64,000 nt of DNA from Echinarachnius parma (taxonomy: Eukaryota; Echinodermata; Echinoidea; Clypeasteroida; Echinarachniidae), in NCBI GenBank assembly GCA_037951105.1, contig JBAMJV010009745.1, forward strand, positions 1 through 64,000, in the 5' to 3' direction. Both the position numbers and the translations under genes were made by a program. The notes under the pieces are model-generated. The model worked only from the letters and a program-made list of their open reading frames with translations, did not search any database and was not told the DNA's origin. Positions 1,014 to 46,960 of this stretch are shown here, one piece after another. Positions within the stretch are counted from its first letter, which is position 1. Each line of letters opens with the position of its first letter.

Positions 1014-1743
1014 TTAATGGGATCTTCATGTAGTAACATTAGCGTTGTTGATTTCGGGAGTATTTACTACCCGGGACTCGCGATAATTTTTCGGGCGAGT
1101 CCCGGGTACCCGAAATTTACCCATTTTTTATTACATGATCAGCATGTCACGCCAGCTGGGAAAACATGTTCATTCAAGTGACAAAAATTGAGGGCATTTA
1201 TGTCACTTGAATGAACATGATAGATAACTCTTGCGTTCAATGAGGGGACTTGCTTTTTTTCCCCGGGAAATCGAGTATCGATTTTGGCGCCTGGGACTCA
1301 ACATTTTCGGCGGGACCCGGGTACCCGGGACTCATCAACAGCACTAAGTAACATGATCAAAATCGACAAAACTTACATAAAACTCTAGCGGTTCTCCCGT
1401 ACCGTGTTGTATTCGTAGTTCGTACTACCAATAGAAGCATGGAACCGATTTCACTTGTCCAAATTTCTCTTTGGGTATATAAGATATTTATGATTGAAGT
1501 GTTCAGATTTTACATTCACCACTGGAGAAATAAATGCTGTACAAAGTCAGTGCAACGAGTTAGCAAATATATCACTTTGCATTATCGCTCATTACTCAGT
1601 CATAAATGACAATCATTTTCATGGAATGTTCACATATCACACAGTGGACATATCAGATTTAAACAAAATACACATTTTATCTGATTTATCAACACTCTCT
1701 GTCAGTCTTTGCAAATGCCAATACAGTTACCAGATCCCTTTAA
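1014..1743 (+). mobile_element. Family A MITE, copy split by insertion
   Basis: It ends TTACCAGATCCCTTTAA and matches the family A interior from 1347 (CTCTAGCGGTTC, TTGTATTCGTA, GTACAAAGTCAGTGCAA, TTTGCATTATCGCTCATTAC). Its left terminus, diverged, is at 1014-1039. A 307-bp element (1040-1346) separates the parts. Confidence 0.7.
1040..1346. mobile_element. hAT-like non-autonomous element with 8-bp duplication
   Basis: It is flanked by perfect 8-bp direct repeats AGTAACAT (1032-1039 and 1347-1354). Ends are TAGCGTTGTTGAT and ATCAACAGCACTA, a 13-bp inverted repeat with two mismatches. The inside carries repeated GAGTCCCGGGTACCCG-type quasi-palindromes near both ends and a central hairpin (arms CATGTTCATTCAAGTGACA, about 1167-1224). 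An 8-bp duplication and TAGNG ends fit hAT elements. Confidence 0.85.
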
Positions 1744-1904
1744 GTACAAGTTTGCAAACTGTTAGTGTTACCCTGACCTGAGAAATGCCCTAACATGCTT
1801 TAGACATGACAGGAATTTACCCCCAAAGATTTACATAAATAATTCCCAACCTTGGAATTTATGCACTTTTCTGACATTAATTGGGGTGCAAAAGTTCAAC
1901 TAGT

Positions 1905-2471
1905 TATACAGGGTGGCCCCCAAAAAACGGAACGGGCACTTCCCAAAATAAAGTAACAAAATGATTATCATTATTTATGTCCATCGGATAGGGTGTCTTT
2001 TCCAATGAAAAATGATACCAACTACCAAGAACAGTAATTTTGGTAGTGCACTTTCTGTTTTAGGGCGCCATGAGTGACACCATGTCAGGTTCCCTTTTTT
2101 GTCAATTTTTACAGAGTCAGTGCCTGATAAATCAGACTTACTGCCCGTCATAGTATCAAACAACTATGCCCATTCTCTCGGCACACAGCTGAATGCACCC
2201 TAACAATGGCGCGCGTATTGCTCGTTGTTCGATGCTATGACGGGCAGTAAGTGCAATTGATCAGACACTGACTTGGTCAAAATTGACAAAAATGGGAACC
2301 TGACATGGTGTCACTCACAGCGCCCTAAAACAAAAATTACACGACCAAAATGACTGTTCTTGGTATCTATTTTCATTGGAAAAGACACCTAATCCGATGG
2401 ACATAATCGTTTTGTTACTATATTGTGGGAGGTGCCCTGTTCTCTTTTTTTTAGGCCACCCTGACTGTATA
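1905..2471. mobile_element. Family C foldback element, copy 1
   Basis: The whole element is one long inverted repeat. The left arm starts ACAGGGTGGCCCCC and includes GGAACGGGCACTTCCC, ATGTCCATCGGATAGGGTGT and GACACCATGTCAGGTTCCC; the right arm repeats these in reverse and ends GGCCACCCTG. Arms of about 250 bp meet at CTATGACGGGCAGTAAG near 2230. TA flanks and CAGGGTGG ends recall Tc1/mariner-type derivatives. The open frames inside are non-functional by appearance. Confidence 0.85.
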
Positions 2472-3906
2472 GTGCCATTTTCTTCATGCAAAGGCAGTTG
2501 GAACATACAACAGTCTATGGTTGAATGCACTGCATTGTTCTTAGATCTGTGATCTTGTTTTGAAGTTCATTCCCCCTTGAATTCTGAATGTTATTTACAA
2601 AGAAAATGGTACACCATCTCACTTACAAATGAGGAAATGTCTTTTAAAATAAACATAGAAAAATATAATATTTGACATTTAACATTGATTTGACATTCAG
2701 ATCAATAAATTTGGATCTAAGATTGTTAAGGGCTTTGCAAAGTAATTATGAAATGTTAATATAATTTTGATAACATTATCAATGAAAAATAAATGTATGC
2801 TATTTTATAGCTAATTATTAATGACAAAAGGTTGAAGAACTTACTGAATAGTGATTATAACAAAGCCCTTTTTTTATTGCAGGTTAATATTTCTGTTTTT
2901 TTTGAACGAATAGAACTAGAAGTGCAAGTAGGAAATATACGGGGGCTGAGGGCGATTTTGCCTCCCAATTTTCAAAATAGCCCCTTGACATCAGTAGGTA
3001 GCTCCTAAAATTACCATCTAGATGGTGTTATGTGAAATATTTTGTGATATCCCTCAGATTTAAAAAGTAGCTCCCTAAAATAGAAAAATGAATTCCTGCA
3101 TTGTAGAAATGCAAGTACTAGAAGTGCTACTACTATTTTCAATTTTGAACATTTATGATTTTTCTTACCGAATATGATACATGTACATGTAGGCCAGGAA
3201 AAAAAAAAATAGTGTGGAGGCTTGGTAATGGTATGCTTGTAAGTTCTAAGCGTCATGACAGTACACTAACTACCTTGATCAGAGGAGGTATAAAGTTGAG
3301 TTGATGTGACATGGAGGGGTGAAGGGGCTTCTATCTACCTTGCCCCACAGTTTCCTGTCACTGGAGCCTAGTCTCCTTTCAGGGCTTTTACACTTCACAA
3401 ATTCTTGTTTTTACTATTAAAACTTGTGTTTTAAGAAAGAAAGATAAGTAATCAAAACAGATCTGTCTTAACAAGACTTCTAAAGATAAACAAATCAGGA
3501 TGAATAATTGAAAAGCAAGAAAATTGTTCACCTAAATGGTTCTAATTTGTAACTAGCGAGATGTATATTTTGAGGAATAGCATTGCATGTATGTATTGTA
3601 TACATTCATCTACTGAAGGTGTGATTTGCAACACCAAGAGAGAGAGTGAGAGGGAGAGAGTGAATGCAGGTGTAAATGAGAAGTTCCTCTATGAATATGG
3701 TGTGGAGAGATACTTGGTCTTGGCCCCAGTCACACAGTGATAAACCCAATCACAACTATTCATAAAGTACTTGGTTGGGGTTTGTGTCCAGAGAACCCAT
3801 GTTTTAAAAACTGGAATTGTCTTCCACTAGTTGAGAATAACTTCTTTATGATTGATTATTAAAACACCATGAATTGAATTGTGAATCTTTAAAGGTTGTT
3901 AAGCGT
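2472..3906. other. No gene; AT-rich, small repeats
   Basis: Contains a stretch at 2940-3250 loosely like the GC-motif repeats elsewhere (GGGCGATTTTGCC, TAGCTCCCTAAAA, GTGGAGGCTTG), and a short GAGA tract at 3638-3660. Nothing coding was recognised. Confidence 0.5.
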
Positions 3907-7981: not shown

Positions 7982-7983
7982 TA

Positions 7984-10900
7984 TAGGGCAGGTGGGCAAT
8001 TCCACCATAACGGAATTACATTCAGAGACGTTTTTTGCTCATTATTTCATTCCCTGCGCAATATTCTCATGACTTAAGTAAATTTTGATACTTATATAAG
8101 TTGCACGGGTAACCAGGCTACAACATGATAGGGAAATGGTTTTATATCTTCCATGTGTTGTTGCACACTAGACCAATATGTGTGACCGTAACGGAATTAC
8201 CGGAGAATGGAGTTTTTTTTTTGCTACAAGTTTGCGTTGAGTTTCTCTGAAATATAAGACACTTTGAAACTGATTTTATGTATTTTTTCTATCTTGATAA
8301 TGTCAACTTCATTTTGGAACAAGTACGTGCATAAACAACACAATGATAAGTTCACAAATTCACTTTTTTGAAAAAAGACCACTGTAACGGAATTACACAA
8401 ATTTGTAACGGAATTACATCTCTGAAAGTTACAAGGAAAACTCAATTATTTTGCACTCAACTTTTCTTACATGCTAATGCAAACATCAAGGCTATCTAGC
8501 ACTTGAATATAAACTATAATTTGACATATCTGTAAAGCAATTTTTGAACTTGTTATGTGTAAAATAAATGAAAATATGGCCAAAATACAAATAAGAGTGA
8601 AATTTGAAAAAAATATTGCTAAAATCCAGCTTTATTTCGGTTTATTTTCAGCTTCATATTAGTAGGCAAGAAATTAAAAAGGATTGCATCAATTTAATGA
8701 AAGAAAAATCCTAGGAACTATGTCCACTAATGTGTGTAACGGAATTACACAACTTAAGCAGTGAAATCAATTTTCCACAAATCGGTACATGAACAACAAA
8801 GAATTCACATTTTAGCTTCAATACTTTTCAAAAATCAATAATTTGACAATAATAACCATATTTGAAGAAAAAAAAAGCAACATTTTAGAATTTTTCCTTT
8901 TCTTCAAGAAAAATGGCTAAATTGTGAAAAAAAAATGTACTACATTATGTGACATGCTAAATAACTGCACATAATCAATATCAAGCAACATTTAAACAAT
9001 TACAAATCACAAACAGGTCAAATCATTCAACTTTCAATGCTATAAAGCCTCGTAAACTTCCTGAATATTGGAAATCTGTGTGAATGGAAATGCATTGTGA
9101 ATGGGTAATTCCACTGTTACAGAATGACAAATAAGTGATTTTTAGCTCTGTTTTCTTAATCATATTTAAAATTCCTTTCACTTTCACAGTTTTTAAAACT
9201 TTAATAACTGGCAGGGGTACTAGACTAGAGGTACAACAGAACCCAAGATTGTTACAAATCTATATAACACTGTAGCGTCCAGAGACCAAAATACAATCAT
9301 AACGGAAAGGGGTCTTTCATTCAACACTAACTATGTAATGATTTTCTGCAAAAGCTACCAAAAAAAATTCTTCATTGGTAATAAAAAATTCTTCATTGGT
9401 AATAAAAACTTATCATTCAAGTTACAAACTTGAATTTGGTACATCTTTTTTTCCAGAAATGATCTATTTTAACCTCTGAAATTACAAACGAATGTCACTG
9501 TAACGGAATTACGCCTGTGAAAACCACCCATGAAAATGCAATTTCTTGGTTACATTATTCTGCTTTTCTGCTTATAGTCATTAGTAAAGAATGTGTATGC
9601 ATTGTTCATCACAAGCTCTTACATAAGGACCAGAACAAATCCTGAAGTTATGTGTGTGCGTAACAGAATTACAAGAAAATCAAGATTTGTTATATAAACT
9701 CTTGTTATATTCTAAAATTATTCTTTTAAAAATGCATCCTAAATTGATCTTAATTTACTCTCAAATCAATTTGGAATGCGTTTTCATCCATTCCATGAAA
9801 TACTTGTATAGATGTATATCGGATATAAACGTGTATGATCCTCAGACAAAAAGTTAGCATATAAAATATAAATATAGAATTGCCAAAAATTAAAGACACC
9901 TTTAGGGATTCCCATTTGAAAATGCAAATACTTTGTACATCATTCTTCTTTGATCTGCATACAGAAGCACACTGAACACTCAATGTATTCTGACTTTATG
10001 ATAATGAATAAAACATGTGTATCTTAGCCTGTATTATGTTTAGTTTTGAATATCTTGAAGCCTATTCTGTATTTATGTTTAATTTTATATGCTTCAGTTT
10101 AATACAAATTTACATAATTAATGATAAGTTATGAGCCTTTAACTGATCAATGATATTCAAATCTACATACAATTACAAAATTATTAATATTAAATCTCCT
10201 TGAAAGTTGAAGGTATGATTTATATCTTAAAATACATGAATGTAAATTAATGTGAGAAAATAAATGTAGCACCAGTGTCATACTAATCACTGGATATTTA
10301 AAAACAAAATGTATTGTTTTTGTTTTTCCCTTCTTAAGTACAAACATGAATCTGCTGCATCTTCATAATTTTAGTCAAGTGGTTCTTGCTGGAAACTAAT
10401 TTAATGATAGAACATTATCATCTCTATTATGTTCATGGAGAGATTAGAGAAATTATCTATCGTGTATCAATTTAGTTAAATCACCATTGATGCAATATGA
10501 AGCATGTGGTACAATGAGTCACATAAAGTAACATTGTACAGTACTTGCATAATGACGTACTGTCTACATGGCTACAGTTCATGATATTTAAAGGGTATTT
10601 CTACATTGAGAACAAGAATTTTTTTAATTTTCAGCAATATCATTCAATACCTTACAAACCATGTGCGTGTAATTCCGTTACGTAACGGAATTACCAATAT
10701 CGTTACGCCAATTTTGGAAAAAGTAGTGACATTATTTCAGAAAATTATGTTGGAAGTTCTTAGGACTGTGGTGAAGGAAGAGAATTCACAATGACATGAC
10801 TAAAGAACAAGTAATAAGATATTGAGAAAAACTTATTATGTTTTATCGTAACGGAATTACGATCAAATATGCATAGATTTCAAAAATTTCTCCAAAAAAA

Positions 10901-12939
10901 AATGCAATGAAGTTACTGCCCATGCTTTACAATTTGTGATTGTTGCTACATTGTATGGAAAATATGAGAAAAAGAGCAGAAACAATCATTGAATTAAAAG
11001 ATTCACTTCATTTTCATGAAATGAAGCTGATTTATGAATAAAAGGTCATACATTTCTGTTCAATTGAAGCAGAAATATTTGCAAAACCAATAGAGCTATA
11101 CACAAATGGTTTTCAGTTTCCTAAAATTCAAGTTTTCCTCTATCGATAACAGTTTGATTTAGGGAAGATTGCTCAACTTTGAGATGTGGTGTTTTTGCCT
11201 TCTCTCATACGGAATTGCCCAGGTCCAAGCTAATGTCCCCCTTGATGGTGAAAATTCATCTTCATTTTAGCTTTACAAATTTGGTATCATTTCAAAGCTA
11301 AAAGTCTGAAGTTTAGATTTTTAGTACAGAAATTTGCATAATATGCATATTTAACGAGTAGTGAGCATCTAATTTGCATATTTCAAATATTAGCGTGACG
11401 TACGGGACATTGTATTTCTATTTTTAATTTTTATTTCATCAAGCTTTAATTTCATATATGGGGACTAGTAAAACTAATCACTAGCAATAGTTGACCAAAT
11501 TTTTAAGTGTCAAAATTAATTAATTATGCTATTTAGGGCGTGTCCAAACTGCAATGTCCCGTACGTCACAAAAATGAACACCTTTTTTAAATATTTCAGT
11601 ATGAAACACTAATTTCTTTCTTTCATATTTTGTGAAGTTCTAATTTATCATACTCTTGACTGGCTAGCTAAGTTTTATGAAAACAGCATTTTTCGTTTTG
11701 ATTTTATTAGCTAATTAAGACATGTGACGTACGGGACAAAAGTGTGACGTACGGGACATTTTCAGTGTTAAAGCAATGGCAAGCCAGGTGAAAATTATTT
11801 GTTTTGTGTTTTACCACTGATTATTATAATAATTCTTGCTTAGATAGTCTTAAAAATTTCAGAATAAATAGGTCTTACCTTTAGGAGTTACATCTAAAAG
11901 TAATTACATAATTACCACATCATACTTCACGTTATAGCTACATACTGATGAAAATGTGTCTGGAGGGGGAAATTTGAAATACCTCATAATTACCTTTAAA
12001 TAATTATCTAAAATACTAGACAGTCAATTTGAGTAGGGAAACTGCATGTCAATGAAGGAAATATAGTATTACATTGGTTCAGTACACCGAGACCTTCCAA
12101 ACAGGTTCAAAAACTGCAAGAAAGTGCTAAAAAGGCAAACAATATTTTTAGTTTTTCTTCTAATGTGTAGGATTTCATGTAAGTTGCCAAATTTATGATG
12201 ATTCTGTTTAATTTTCTCATATTCAAATCTTTTTTGTCAATATTGAAGGTAATTTACATCAGATAGATGTATCCCACATCTTTTGAAGCCAAATACAATA
12301 TTAATTCTTAATTAGTTATTCGAATAATTAATGCAAATTATCGGATTTCAGAGCTTCAATTTGTTAAAGTGTTATTATAATGTATTGCAGAAAGCTGTTT
12401 TTGAGTTTTAAATCATCACAATATTGAATAAATACAATAAGAACAAATATATTGCAAAATGGACCCAAAGATTTTAAAATAAAAGCAGGAAAATGACAAA
12501 TAAAACATGAGGGAAAAATGTCCCGTACGTCACATGTCCCGTACGTCACGCGCATACCTATTTTCTTTCATTAATTATCATGGGATAAAAGGTCATAATT
12601 TTTTTATTTTTTTGCAGTGGGTATATTAATGGTTACTAAATGCATATATCAGGAATAAGTTGTTATCTGCCATGTAGATTCAGAGAGTTTTCATAATACA
12701 CATTTTTTTGTCAAAGTCATAATTTCTCTGGTCCCGTACGTCACGCTGCATATTTATTAGCATAACTAAATTTTAAAGAGCGTTTTGAATATTTTTTTTT
12801 GCATTTTAGGAAGGGACTACAAGTAGCTTTCCAAAGCACCAAAAAGATTCCAGATCATAGCTCCTTCCTTTGAATAATATTCAATTGAAAGCTGTGAATG
12901 TCCCGTACGTCACAAGTCAAATAGCTTGGACCTGCCCTA
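7984..12939. mobile_element. Outer motif-array element (M2), TA-flanked, interrupted by M1
   Basis: The right terminus (12922-12941) is TAGCTTGGACCTGCCCTATA. Its exact reverse complement is split on the left: TATAGGGCAGGT at 7982-7993 and CCAAGCTA at 11225-11232. Joined across the M1 insertion these give a perfect 20-bp inverted repeat including the flanking TA. Without M1 the element is about 1.7 kb, AT-rich and non-coding. It carries eight copies of GTGACGTACGGGACA: forward at 11395, 11724 and 11744; reverse at 11555, 12519, 12535, 12730 (one mismatch) and 12899. TA duplication suggests a Tc1/mariner-like or related mover (inference). The family is not recognised. Confidence 0.85.
7994..11220. 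mobile_element. Inner motif-array element (M1), 3.2 kb, AGGT duplication
   Basis: Ends are GGGCAATTCC (7994-8003) and GGAATTGCCC (11211-11220), a perfect 10-bp inverted repeat, directly flanked by AGGT at 7990-7993 and 11221-11224. Inside, GTAACGGAATTAC recurs at 8007 (one mismatch), 8188, 8384, 8405, 8736, 9500, 9660 (one mismatch), 10682 and 10848, and in reverse at 10669; degenerate copies lie near 9104 and 9116. The sequence is AT-rich, and no open frame exceeds about 77 codons, so it is non-autonomous or not protein-based. A 4-bp duplication with GGGC ends fits several superfamilies; none is claimed. Confidence 0.85.
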
Positions 12940-12941
12940 TA

Positions 12942-18737: not shown

Positions 18738-18755
18738 GCTTACAAAAATTTGAAT

Positions 18756-19600
18756 AACTTTCCAACCCTGCATCTGTCTGTAACCAAACATGATTGGTAG
18801 ATGCCCTACATTGCCCTCCATGATATGCTGGGGTCAAAGGTAACATAAGTAGGTTTAAGGTCAAATGAGGTCAAATGTGAAAGTTTTGGGGTAAGAGTCG
18901 GATTAGGGTTGATAACTTTCCAACCCTGCATCTGTCTGTAACCAAACTTGATTGGTAGATGCCCTATACCGGCCTCCATGATATGCTGGGGTCAAAGGTC
19001 GCATAACTAAGTAGGTCAATGGTCATGTGAGGTCAAATGTGAAAGTTTTGGGGTAAGTGTCTATTAGGGTTGATAACTTTCCAACCCTGTATCTGTTTGT
19101 AACCAAACATGATTGGTAGATGCCCTACATTGCCCTCCATGATATGCTGGGGTCAAAGGTAACATAAGTAGGTTTAAGGTCAAATGAGGTCAAATGTGAA
19201 AGTTTTGGGGTAAGAGTCGGATTAGGGTTGATAACTTTCCAACCCTGCATCTGTTTGTAACCAAACTTGATTGGTAGATGCCCTATATTGGCCTCCATGA
19301 TATGCTGGGGTCAAATGTCACATAAGTAGGTCAAAGGTCAAATGAGGTCACATGTGAAAGTTTTGGGGTAAGAGTCTATTAGGGTTGATAACTTCCCAAC
19401 CCTCCATCTGTTTGTAACCAAACTCGATTGGTAGATGCCCTATATTGGCCTCCATGATATTCTGGGGTCAAAGGTCACATATGTAGGTCAAAGGTCAAAT
19501 GAGGTCAAATTTGAAAGTTTACCTGCAAGACTCTATAATGGTTGATAACTTTCCAACCCTGCATCTGTTTGTAACCAAACTTGATTGGCATAAATGCGCG
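18756..19600 (+). repeat. Tandem repeat, ~158-bp unit, about 5.3 copies
   Basis: AACTTTCCAACCCTGCATCT recurs at 18756, 18914, 19075, 19233, 19390 and 19547 (steps of 157-161). Each unit ends with a stretch of AGGTCA half-sites, for example AGGTCAAAGGTCAAATGAGG. Copies are about 90 percent alike by eye. Confidence 0.9.
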
Positions 19601-35700: not shown

Positions 35701-35730
35701 GTTTATGCAGTGCATAGCACAAACTATATT

Positions 35731-36159
35731 CTAGATCAAAATGGTGGTCGGCAGCGTAGTTCTAGATCAAAATGGTGGTCGGCAGCGTAGTTCTAGATCA
35801 AAATGGTGGTCGGCAGCGTAGTTCTAGATCAAAATGGTGGTCGGCAGCGTAGTTCTAGATCAAAATGGTGGTCGGCAGCGAAGTTCTAGATCAAAATGGT
35901 GGTCGGCAGCGAAGTTCTAGATCAAAATGGTGGTCGGCAGCGTAGTTCTAGATCAAATTGGTGGTCGGCAGCGTAGTTCTAGATCAAAATGGTGGTCGGC
36001 AGCGTAGTTCTAGATCAAAATGGTGGTCGGCAGCGTAGTTCTAGATCAAAATGGTGGTCGGCAGCGTAGTTCTAGATCAAAATGGTGGTCGGCAGCGTAG
36101 TTCTAGATCAAAATGGTGGTCGGCAGCGTAGTTCTAGATCAAAATGGTGGTCGGCAGCG
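35731..36159 (+). repeat. 31-bp minisatellite, 14 copies
   Basis: CTAGATCAAAATGGTGGTCG followed by GCAGCGTAGTT repeats every 31 bases with almost no variation (two units with GCGAAG, one with AAATTGG). The last unit lacks its final five bases. 31 is not a multiple of three, so it is not coding. Confidence 0.95.
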
Positions 36160-42514: not shown

Positions 42515-42960
42515 TAATCATGACTAAAGAATCAGCAGCTGACTATAGAATCAGCTTCTCATTAAAAATTCCTATGGCAAACCCTTTGTGTAAAAACTAG
42601 ATAAACTATGTTTTTCTCAGATACACTCAGTTTTTCTCAGATAAACTCGGTTAATCTCCAGATAAACACAGTTTATCAGAAAACTCAGTTTATCAGTTGA
42701 TAAACTGAGTTTGTCTGATAATGTGTTTATATGGCAAGCCCTTTGCGTAACAACTAGATAAACCCTGTTTTTCTCAGATAAACTCAGTTTATCACCAGAT
42801 AGACAGAGTCTATCAACTGATAAACTGAGTTTTTCTGATAAACTGTGTTTATCTGGAGATAAACTGAGTTTATCTGAGAAAAACTGATTTTATATGAGAA
42901 AACAGAGTGTATCTAGTTTTTACACAAAGGGCTTGCCATTAGTCATGATTCTTTAGTCAC
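42515..42960. repeat. Palindrome-cluster element with TGACTAAAGAATCA ends
   Basis: Ends TGACTAAAGAATCA and TGATTCTTTAGTCA are exact inverse copies. A second inner pair, GGCAAACCCTTTGTGTAAAA and TTTTACACAAAGGGCTTGCC, lies inside, and a direct copy sits at 42733. Between them GATAAACTGAGTTTATC and variants recur more than ten times in both orientations. Confidence 0.8.
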
Positions 42961-43850: not shown

Positions 43851-45793
43851 ACCACAAGCTGGCGCAATTATAGTATCGTGTACGGTAGGGCGAATGAGAT
43901 AGTGACCAGAGACGATGGTCAGCAGGTCAGTGAGCTATGCAAATAAACAACGGTTCAGTGGGGTAATTAGATGACTGCGCGACCTGTATACACGGCTATA
44001 CAGCCATTGCGCGTTGTATAACCGCAGCTAAATTGAAGTTGTCGCATTTTGTCGTCGATGCACTTACAAATACGATGCCAATCGGCAATAGCGATCATTA
44101 CCATACCATACGCGTAATATAAATATTGATATTTATTAAAACCTGGGTAGTTTCGCAACGTGTTATATCTAAAATGGTTTCTCAATATATTATTTGTTTT
44201 ATCTACTCCAATTTATATTCTTACAAATACTTTTACGGCGATAAATCGTTAGTCAGTGCTCGGCTTCTTAAACGGGCAATTGACATTGCTGACTTTCCCT
44301 TTTCTTCGATCTGGAGGACGACCACGGGGCGGGAGCGACGCGGGAATGCCTTATTGTCCTCCGCAAAACGTATATCCTTCGATCGCGACGGTCGGGGAGT
44401 CGCCGAATCCTCGGGGTGAGGATATCTCGAGTGGGTGGGGTTGAAGCTTACCGTATTAATATAATAGATGATTAAAGGGATGAAAATTTGTTGTTTGTGA
44501 ACACGCTGGATTGTAAAAGAATTTACCAGAACACGAGCAGGTTGGAATTTACAATGTAGAACAAGATGGAATGTACAATGTACAAGGACAGGATGAAGGT
44601 GGTGAAATGTACATAGTTGTTTACCATCTTCTGTAGATTCCGATCTTTGTTTTAAAAGTTTGTTGACATGCCTAGATTCAGTCAGTTGCCTGATGTGCAA
44701 GTACATGTACCTCTATGGCTGCTACATGTATATGACTGTAAGCTCACAGGGGAGTTGAAATTGCACACTATAATGTGTATATTTGCATATATTGTACCCA
44801 GTTACTAAGGGTAACAATGTCTCGTTTCTACAGTGCTTAACTGGTGTGTTATGCACTATATAAATGTTAATTATTGTCATAAAGTATTATCAATGTGTTC
44901 AACCTTTTTAACCCCCTTGCTTACACGAACCAAGCGGGCCATTTAGGTTTCAGAAGCTCATAGGGAACTGGTAAATGCTTTGAAATTGATAATGTGCTCC
45001 CGAACCGGTTTAATTGTAACAGTAAGGTACTAATGTAATGTAACTGTGCTTACTAATTTGTTGACAGGGGTGAAATGACAAGGGCATCTCCCTCTGTAAT
45101 GCTTTTACAAGCCATTAAAGTCTACTTCAACTTATTACAGTCTGTGTTGGTACACATCTATTAGGTTCACGAAGGGGTCAAGAAGTCGGAAAGTGTATTG
45201 AGGAATAATTGCATGATGATGAATGTTCAAGATTTACATATCATTAGATCTTTGCAATGTATTTATGTACATGTACTGTATGTATAAACTGGTCCGTGGG
45301 CTGCAGACAAACGATAACAACTCTTACATCATACTTATCATTGAAATATGCAGGGGCTATCATTATCATCACATCACCTTTAAAACCCATTCAGTAGATT
45401 AGTGGGAAATCCAAGCTCCGTTATAACGAGCTCCGTTATAATAACAAGCTCTGTTACAACGAGGTGTATGTTTAGAGCAGTACATTTCACAGGTACAGGT
45501 CAATGTATTTTATTATTTTCACACCCTGAACAAAAACAAGGTGAATTCAATGGGCCAACCCCTACAGAAATCCAAGTGTTTCAAAGACCAACTCGAGACA
45601 AAACATGTATATTCTTGTCCCAAAACTTCTATTCGTATACCAAATCAACATCACCCTGAACAACCCAGACTGTGTCGGTTCGGTGTTAGTTGGTCTCTGT
45701 CTTTCTGATGTGACTAGGGTCAAATAATATTTCAAACTAGTTTTATCTAAAGTTATTTTCCTTAAAATTCTCTATTCAAAATGATCTTTCCAG
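43851..45793. other. Intron 2 end; CpG-rich patch, no gene
   Basis: 44230-44450 is CpG-rich (GGGCGGGAGCGACGCGGG, TCGATCGCGACGG) with overlapping open frames of up to 157 codons that resemble no domain. 45405-45465 repeats GCTCCGTTATAACGAG-like words. Confidence 0.5.
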
Positions 45794-46891
45794 GTTCGAC
45801 GTACACAGGTAACTGGCAGCTGATCAGCTGCACCACCCTCAGTGCTCCCCAGTACGTATCGGGCCACCAGACAACCAGACAGACAGCTGGACAGAACCCT
45901 GGCCAGAACCCAGGACAGAACACACAACAGACGGTCATCAGCCAAACGACCAGGCAACAAACCATTCGACGATACAATAACACAATTTGTAATGTTATTT
46001 TTACAGGTTCAACGTACACAGGTAACTGGCAGCTGATCAGCCGCACCACCCTCAGCGCTCCCCAGTACGTGTCGGGCCACCAGACAACCAGACAGACAGC
46101 TGGACAGAACCCTGGCCAGAACCCAGGACAGAACACACAACAGACGGTCATCAGCGAAACGACCAGGCAACAAACCATTCAACAATACAATAACACAATT
46201 TTTAATGTTATTTTTACAGGTTCAACTTACACAGGTAACTGGCAGTTGATCAGCCGCACCACCCTCAGTGCTCCCCAGTACGTGTCAGGCCACCAGACAA
46301 CCAGACAGACTGCTGGACAGAACCCAGGACAAAACACGAGACAGACTCTCATCAACCAACAAACTGTTTTACGCAACACTAGAGTCGGGGGACAGCCAAC
46401 GGCAAGGCAAAATGGCGGGCAGACCTTGTTAAATCCTTCGCAAACGGGACGTCAGAGCTCCGTGAATACGGCGGCGCTTACGGGTCCGCGAACGGGGATT
46501 TATACACCACCAGATCAGCCGCGGCAGTATGTGCCAAGACAAACGGGATCGCAGTACGTGCCACGCCAAACGGGGTCGCAGTTTGTCCCGCGACAAACCG
46601 GATCGCAGCAGTTTGTTCCACCTCAAACCGGATCGCAGTATGTACCACGCCAAACGGGATCACAGTTCGTGCCACGCCAAACGGGATCACAGTTCGTGCC
46701 AAGACAAACCGGATCTCAGTTTGTGCCACAACAAACCGGACAGCAGTTAGTACCGAGACAGACGACTTCATCCATCTATAGTTGCTACTCGCAGGGTTGT
46801 CACTACAGGTGTCGCACGGAGAGCAACGGTCAAGTGCAATGCACATGTCCACCTGGCTACATGCTAGGCTCTGACCAGAAGAGCTGTGTTG
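45794..46891 (+). CDS. Exon: Gln-rich 71-residue repeats, nonapeptide repeat and EGF-like module
   Basis: This exon is 1,098 nt, phase 1 at both ends, open throughout; the donor is GTTG|GTAAG. In order: (1) a unit starting GSTYTGNWQLIS, present three times at an exact 213-base (71-codon) step from 45794, 46007 and 46220, the third diverging after QNPGQNT; (2) a Gln/Thr/Gly-rich stretch; (3) eight tandem RQTGSQFVP-like nonapeptides at about 46537-46755; (4) an EGF-like module from SCYSQGCHYRC to KSCVG with CTCPPGYML, six cysteines. The repeats have no acidic calcium site and look like a disordered or elastic, possibly cross-linkable linker (inference). Copies 2 and 3 each carry their own TTTTTACAG acceptor in frame, so an exon start at 46007 or 46220 is also possible. 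Confidence 0.8.
46537..46755 (+). repeat. In-frame 27-bp coding minisatellite (RQTGSQFVP, 8 units)
   Basis: Eight tandem units of nine codons, one with an extra Gln codon and the last degenerate (QQTGQQLVP). Variation is mostly synonymous or Tyr/Phe and Arg/Gln exchanges. Other frames stay open through the array because the unit is a multiple of three, giving spurious 73- and 140-residue open frames on both strands. Copy number is likely to vary between individuals (inference). Confidence 0.85.
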
Positions 46892-46960
46892 GTAAGACAA
46901 ATTATTATCTATTTTAAAAGTTCATATATTGCTTTCACCTCGTATATTCAAATGACCATC

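Follow-up and report, generated by a model that had tools for sequence, protein, structure and literature searches.

What kind of elements are two long, gene-less insertions that lie one inside the other, each carrying its own recurring quasi-palindrome, and what could read these repeats? The question is raised by a 64-kb stretch of the Echinarachnius parma genome, the whole of which is called the window below (contig JBAMJV010009745.1, assembly GCA_037951105.1; C9726:1-64000 in the 1.2 Gb assembly of 14790 contigs that was searched), where an outer element is split close to its left end by an inner one. Both elements are best read as non-autonomous cut-and-paste transposons, and the repeats are probably arrays of putative binding sites for a transposon-encoded DNA-binding protein, with a specificity shifting between families. 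The evidence comes from the ends and target duplications of their genomic copies, from the positions of the motifs in related families, and from the way in which the motifs resist or undergo change.

Ends, target duplications and nesting

The preliminary description of this locus reported two nested non-coding elements, with AGGT on both sides of the inner one and an outer terminus that its removal restores, all of which agrees with the coordinates in Table 1: the inner element interrupts the outer one at its left terminus, and its excision together with one AGGT yields GGGCAGGTCCAAGCTAATGTCC, the start of intact outer copies. Coding capacity had rightly been denied to both, the longest stop-free stretches being 67 amino acids (outer) and 81 amino acids (inner). 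The 20-bp outer terminal inverted repeat (TIR) including TA had to be revised: the terminus is GGGCAGGTCCAAGCTA, a 16-bp TIR, and the adjoining TATA is a 4-bp target duplication, which reads TATA in the window copy by chance.

With at most one mismatch, GGGCAGGTCCAAGCTA is found at 502 + 493 places in the genome (1 + 1 for the backwards control), and exact matches directly preceded by TATA number 40. The notion that the outer element duplicates TA in the manner of Tc1/mariner, and is unrelated to the inner element, draws on the TATA on both sides of the window copy, but 94 of the 100 listed exact ends carry flanks other than TATA (six carry TATA), and intact outer copies are flanked on both sides by TACA, ACTA, ATAT, TGTA, AAAT, TACA and AAGT. 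Duplications such as TACA, ACTA and TGTA leave this notion virtually no probability, and a Tc1/mariner-like outer element is ruled out; of the two kinds of duplication that had been proposed for checking, the 4-bp kind was found (AGGT for the inner element) and the TA kind was not. Clean 4-bp flank matches are lacking in the outer copies L026, L027, L060 and L067.

Alignment of 18 outer copies (the window copy and 17 fetched loci, excluding L011, L018 and L020, which carry insertions or damage, and L001-L008, which represent the same or overlapping places) divides them, when 90% identity to the window sequence is taken as the limit, into subfamily A (10 copies at 97-99%) and subfamily B (8 copies at 83-85%). 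The inner left end has 706 candidate places; the 40 of them that were scored are 100% identical over 207 bp, and a pattern for left ends that includes the inner type occurs at 411 + 428 places (control 0). The 30 loci used for inner left arms were cut from these 40, which biases them towards identical copies, and a split among them is no independent test of conservation. Many genomic copies with the same ends, as sought in the preliminary description, were found for both elements, and both families are abundant and young. Like the inner element, the outer one starts with GGGCA and makes a 4-bp duplication; therefore both are members of one group, which, judged by sequence, consists of elements with GGGCA ends, 4-bp AT-rich duplications and high copy number, the two in the window being gene-less.

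A scan of the fetched loci for paired GGGCA...TGCCC ends flanked by the same 4 bp, together with tests of a similar kind, revealed seven complete GGGCA families beyond the outer and inner ones, and a partial one represented by a right arm in L027. Two families that look related but end in GGGTCA, F018 (3462 bp) and F065 (2362 bp), likewise make 4-bp duplications. The F018 copy at L018:2727-6188 consists of ~400-bp units, some in direct and some in mirrored order, and F065 (L065, about 1541-3902) also has long inverted repeats. Additional ends were seen, e.g. at L017:3686 and L035:2746. Nesting recurs among these families: F024 lies in outer copies (L063, L064), F062 in an outer (L066) and an inner (L062) copy, and F018 and F065 in outer copies (L018 and L065), as does the inner element in the window. 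Of these seven nested insertions, whose empty sites can be judged, four (window, L063, L018 and L065) have a duplication of exactly 4 bp; in L062 the same 4 bp stand on both sides, with an adjacent length difference that blurs the alignment, and the flanks in L064 are ATAG/ATAT. In the F062 copy at L066:1692-3704, target sequence stands in place of the first bases of the left end, which looks trimmed. The 19 listed target duplications, chosen as exact matches (exceptions being L026, L027, L060, L064, L066 and L067), are 86% A/T, with no TTAA among them.

Position, conservation and concerted change of the motif arrays

As first described, each element has a quasi-palindrome of its own: the inner element contains eight exact copies of GTAACGGAATTAC and two with one mismatch, and the outer element contains eight exact copies of GTGACGTACGGGAC, followed by A in seven cases. 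No exact copy of either motif appeared in first-order resampling (100 sequences per element), and within the window both motifs are confined to their elements. At least nine array-bearing families occur in this one genome. Most of their motifs vary on GT-N(7-10)-AC, often GTAAC-N3/4-GTNAC; the listed family motifs are quasi-palindromic, every one contains CpG, and the commonest 10-mer is the motif in outer, inner, F024, F028, F062 and F059.

The sites are placed alike across families: measured from the left end they lie at ~20, 200, 395 and 411 bp, and families that retain a right arm have further sites ~367, 533 and 550 bp inward of the right end, with ~166-197 bp between successive sites on either side. 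All ten pairwise position tests among inner, F024, F028, F059 and outer beat random placement (p 1e-5 to 5.6e-4), the turning round of the outer element for better fit counting as one extra choice, and F044 and F068, examined after the template was set, match it at four of four sites each (p about 1.5e-4 and 1.3e-4, respectively); the positions in F074 agree as well. Two mismatches were allowed in calling the F062 sites and one in the other families.

Between the consensus sequences of outer subfamilies A and B, none of 112 motif columns differs, as compared with 280 of 1632 other columns, and when eight windows were placed at random, only 2 of 200000 trials did equally well. The left arms of inner and F074 are identical at 39/39 motif columns and at 237/373 others (64%), where a shuffled control gave a mean of 59% and a maximum of 66%, and a site at ~750 is common to the two families. 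That families of nearly unrecognisable kinship keep one signal in the same places plainly suggests a shared reader. The elements had been described as otherwise unconstrained DNA, which is broadly correct for their bulk but not for the motif positions, which are strongly constrained.

A different kind of change is seen between the sister families F028 and F062, which differ at 227 of 1810 aligned positions. Their seven sites show 14 differences, 12 of them at motif positions 6 and 7 (P 2e-6), where all seven F028 sites read AG, and F062 has GC in five sites and AC in two, one of these two reading GC in the L066 copy. A stepwise replacement that runs in parallel at seven dispersed sites is the trace that would be expected from a shifting DNA-binding specificity. 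CpG is also unevenly distributed: the observed/expected ratio outside the motifs is 0.24-0.41 in six measured families (0.53 in the window), a depletion resembling that of methylated DNA, while the motifs, making up 3.5-6.5% of the sequence, contain 10/37 of the CpGs in inner, 18/28 in F024, 7/25 in F028, 12/36 in F062, 8/23 in F059 and 16/28 in outer.

Candidate readers of the arrays

The binding role of the motifs, which we infer, would involve an autonomous relative that makes a DNA-binding protein, either the transposase itself or an accessory factor, reading the motifs alongside the common TIR. A conserved catalytic part, proposed because the TIR and 4-bp duplication are common, would handle the TIR and the 4-bp target, and a family-varying recognition part, proposed because the motif is family-specific, would read the dispersed sites, with any change of specificity dragging all sites along. 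A gene-less copy would be mobile only while it keeps the sites read by the current protein, which would explain how elements of 1.7-3.9 kb keep 7-10 dispersed 13-14 bp sites amid drift. A further proposal, of lower probability, is that families of this animal transposon group split by switching the motif of their own protein, all 7-10 sites being rewritten together with positions, TIR and duplication fixed; the CpGs would be read in a methylation-sensitive manner, and the array would be both a mobility signal and an anti-silencing switch.

An alternative with a modest share of the probability is that the arrays serve a transposon-encoded anti-silencing or regulatory protein similar to VANC, for which there is precedent in the part of the VANDAL study drawn on here (PMC5735166), and which would bind the family-specific non-coding arrays and remove methylation or repressive marks to keep the family mobile. 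Room for it is left by the CpG content (at least one per family motif, with CpGs concentrated in the motifs and depleted outside), by the spread of motifs over much of the inner element, and by the mobility of F044 and F068 after the loss of their right sites. The fixed distances from the ends favour a transposition-type reading resembling that of CACTA elements; together with a site touching the left TIR, they match the needs of a transposition complex rather than a dense array. No such anti-silencing protein was found, and the VANDAL arrays, as portrayed in the same part of that study, are tandem-repeat based and copy-variable, unlike those described here (PMC5735166).

Sites for a host factor (a transcription factor, a Myb-like reader of TAACNG, a nucleosome-positioning or a replication protein), exploited by each family, are improbable: the ~165-200 bp spacing does resemble nucleosome spacing, and a GTAAC half-site is common to several motifs, but one factor should read one motif, whereas the motifs differ by family within one genome, and the concerted change at seven F028/F062 sites better fits an element-specific reader. 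Least credible among explanations of the arrays is that the repeats have no function and arose incidentally, by tandem duplication or gene conversion within the elements. Paired sites 14-21 bp apart, and a 16-bp tandem pair in outer, are of the kind expected from such processes, but only cores of 13-14 bp are common to the sites and their flanks are not, the sites are hundreds of bp apart, in places that do not depend on the family, and they are kept while their flanks diverge to near background.

Several observations weigh against arrays read by a transposon-encoded protein. No transposase or other coding partner was identified among the fetched loci, and the autonomous relatives sharing these termini, which the preliminary description had suggested seeking, were not found. 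DUF7869 (PF25273; 66 matches in the genome), which we took to be a candidate transposase, was rejected on the four of its loci that were fetched (L069-L072), which show neither GGGCA ends nor motif arrays over 5-9 kb. Right-hand sites are missing from F044 and F068, which nevertheless moved, with duplications intact, so mobility does not depend strictly on the right array. Of the ten inner sites, three lie >600 bp from both ends; the earlier statement that motifs occur far from the ends is correct for the inner element only, all eight outer sites being within ~550 bp of an end and the middle motif-free. F018 and F065 have long internal repeats instead of a dispersed short motif, the right arms of inner and F074 agree at only 34/39 motif columns (309/498 others), and the F062 copy nested in L066 lacks a duplication and is damaged at its ends.

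Long outer and inner copies (L018, L059-L068), considered as autonomous forms, contain other insertions and no transposase. These include further GGGCA or GGGTCA elements (in L018, L059, L062, L063, L064, L065 and L066), a long interspersed element (LINE)-like reverse transcriptase reading frame in the L060 insertion, and other repeats. F074 has, between its arrays, a 105-amino-acid protein-like open stretch (L074:2714-3028, minus strand), which hits nothing in Pfam even at an E of 10 and matches two predicted public proteins (one 99% identical, the other 69% identical and with an apparent frameshift), and which is perhaps the remains of an autonomous gene; no match was found for its 94-amino-acid neighbour. 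The element with a DUF7869-type protein in L069 (C2652:3300-12300) has a TTATGCCTCCG-ended repeat on each side, containing five copies of GGTCAAGGTCA in ~150-bp steps, with related copies in C1438, C14010, C628 and C8777. In copies related to L069, the shared sequence extends as far as the GCCTCCG-ended repeats of that locus, and this family seems to have other ends.

Table 1. Features of the two nested elements (window positions) and of related families (length), with site centres in bp from each end.
Feature	Position or length	Strand	Motif or remark	Left site centres	Right site centres
Outer, left target duplication	7982..7985		TATA, outside terminus		
Outer, initial 8 bp	7986..7993	+	GGGCAGGT; severed by inner element		
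Inner, left target duplication	7990..7993		AGGT, doubling as part of outer terminus		
Inner element	7994..11220	+	3227 bp, non-coding; TIR GGGCAATTCC; GGGCAATTCC...GGAATTGCCC	20, 201, 397, 418	367, 533, 546
Inner site 1	8007..8019	+	ATAACGGAATTAC, 1 mismatch		
Inner site 2	8188..8200	+			
Inner site 3	8384..8396	+			
Inner site 4	8405..8417	+			
Inner site 5	8736..8748	+	internal; counterpart at ~750 in F074		
Inner site 6	9500..9512	+	internal		
Inner site 7	9660..9672	+	internal; GTAACAGAATTAC, 1 mismatch		
Inner site 8	10669..10681	-	head to head with site 9		
Inner site 9	10682..10694	+			
Inner site 10	10848..10860	+			
Inner, right target duplication	11221..11224		AGGT		
Outer, remainder (centres: element turned round)	11225..12937	+	right terminus TAGCTTGGACCTGCCC; non-coding; 1721 bp in total minus insert	32, 201, 396, 412	346, 514, 534, extra 185
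Outer site 1	11395..11408	+			
Outer site 2	11556..11569	-			
Outer site 3	11724..11737	+			
Outer site 4	11744..11757	+			
Outer site 5	12520..12533	-			
Outer site 6	12536..12549	-			
Outer site 7	12731..12744	-			
Outer site 8	12900..12913	-			
Outer, right target duplication	12938..12941		TATA		
Family F024	1585 bp		GTCGGACGTAC	21, 190, 378, 392, 414	370, 526, 546, 560
Family F028	1812 bp		GTAACAGCGTGAC	20, 200, 397, 411	367, 533, 553
Family F062	2013 bp		GTAACGCCGTGAC	20, 200, 397, 411	
Family F059	2618 bp		GTTAGTAACGTTAC	21, 200, 386, 401	370, 535, 552, 584
Family F044	779 bp		GTAACTCGCGTTAC	21, 201, 395, 410	none
Family F068	780 bp		GTAATGTCCGTGAC	21, 204, 386, 409	none
Family F074	3857 bp		GTAACGGAATTAC, same as inner	20, 198, 388, 408	366, 522, 538, 555
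Partial family, right arm in L027			GTAACACCCGTAAC		389, 540, 560 and others

Other repeats were noted in two of these families and in the window. The middle of F028 (L028:4762-5190, equal to F028 705-1135) and that of F062 contain repeated TGACCTTTGACC, which we take to resemble a nuclear-receptor DR1 site, and similar text is present at window positions 18754-19588, within a 157-bp tandem array. The window also contains a 31-bp tandem repeat (35729-36159, 13.9 copies, 99% alike), an array of AGATAAACTGAGTTTATC-like palindromes (42599-42914), and a reading frame (45781-46917) matching EGF-type domains, an open frame with an EGF-like end that includes a 213-bp tandem repeat (45787-46325, 2.5 copies).

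Known systems compared

The closest parallel is with CACTA elements (En/Spm, TNPA-like). In soybean, according to the part of the source used here, these combine a conserved TIR with subterminal motifs that differ between families within one species and are believed to serve as sites for an accessory DNA-binding protein (PMC2613891), and family-specific subterminal arrays kept by gene-less copies are a point of likeness. The same part gives CACTA termini and a 3-bp duplication for the soybean element, as against GGGCA and 4 bp here (PMC2613891). The present arrays also differ in having few sites, up to 550 bp inward, at the same positions in otherwise unlike families. Judged by the features of CACTA/EnSpm, the subterminal motif array is present, and the termini and 2-3 bp duplication are absent; by analogy, the GGGCA elements appear to work like CACTA without being members. 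MuDR-type elements make a longer target duplication, of 8-9 bp, and this VANDAL/MuDR length is likewise absent, the duplication here being 4 bp. The VANDAL elements of Arabidopsis, with VANC, share family-specific non-coding motifs that diverge between relatives, but in the part of that study considered, their motifs form dense, variable arrays based on tandem repeats, all in one orientation, whereas those described here are sparse, fixed and on both strands (PMC5735166).

Two superfamilies are closer in duplication type. The 4-bp AT-rich duplications and short TIRs of Sola2 resemble those found here, and membership is possible on this basis, but Sola2 is defined by its own transposase, which was not found here, so membership is not claimable, and position-fixed motif arrays are not reported in the portion of the Sola2 source used (PMC3627910). 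AcademX, with duplications of 3 or 4 bp in the section of its source used (PMC10045372), also agrees in this feature; it is defined by a transposase and an XPG-type nuclease, neither of which was found here, where no profile search was aimed at either, and membership is again not claimable. The TA duplication of Tc1/mariner and the TTAA target of piggyBac/Kolobok are absent, and, in so far as these groups are defined by termini and duplication, the elements belong neither to CACTA nor to mariner, piggyBac or Kolobok. The literature search met no description of these ends or arrays, and the GGGCAATTCC string gave no transposon title among the matches listed.

Precedents for a transposon protein reading internal sites come from plants; that positions stay fixed across strongly diverged families in an animal would, if borne out, appear to be new. 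Most gene-less transposons are read through their ends only, and here a second, internal code can be made out, which is kept against drift and changes in step. The pairs F028/F062, inner/F074 and outer A/B form a natural series suited to studying change in the DNA that a transposon protein reads, and the same series may bear on how copies avoid mobilisation by sister families, and on CpG as a link between mobility and methylation.

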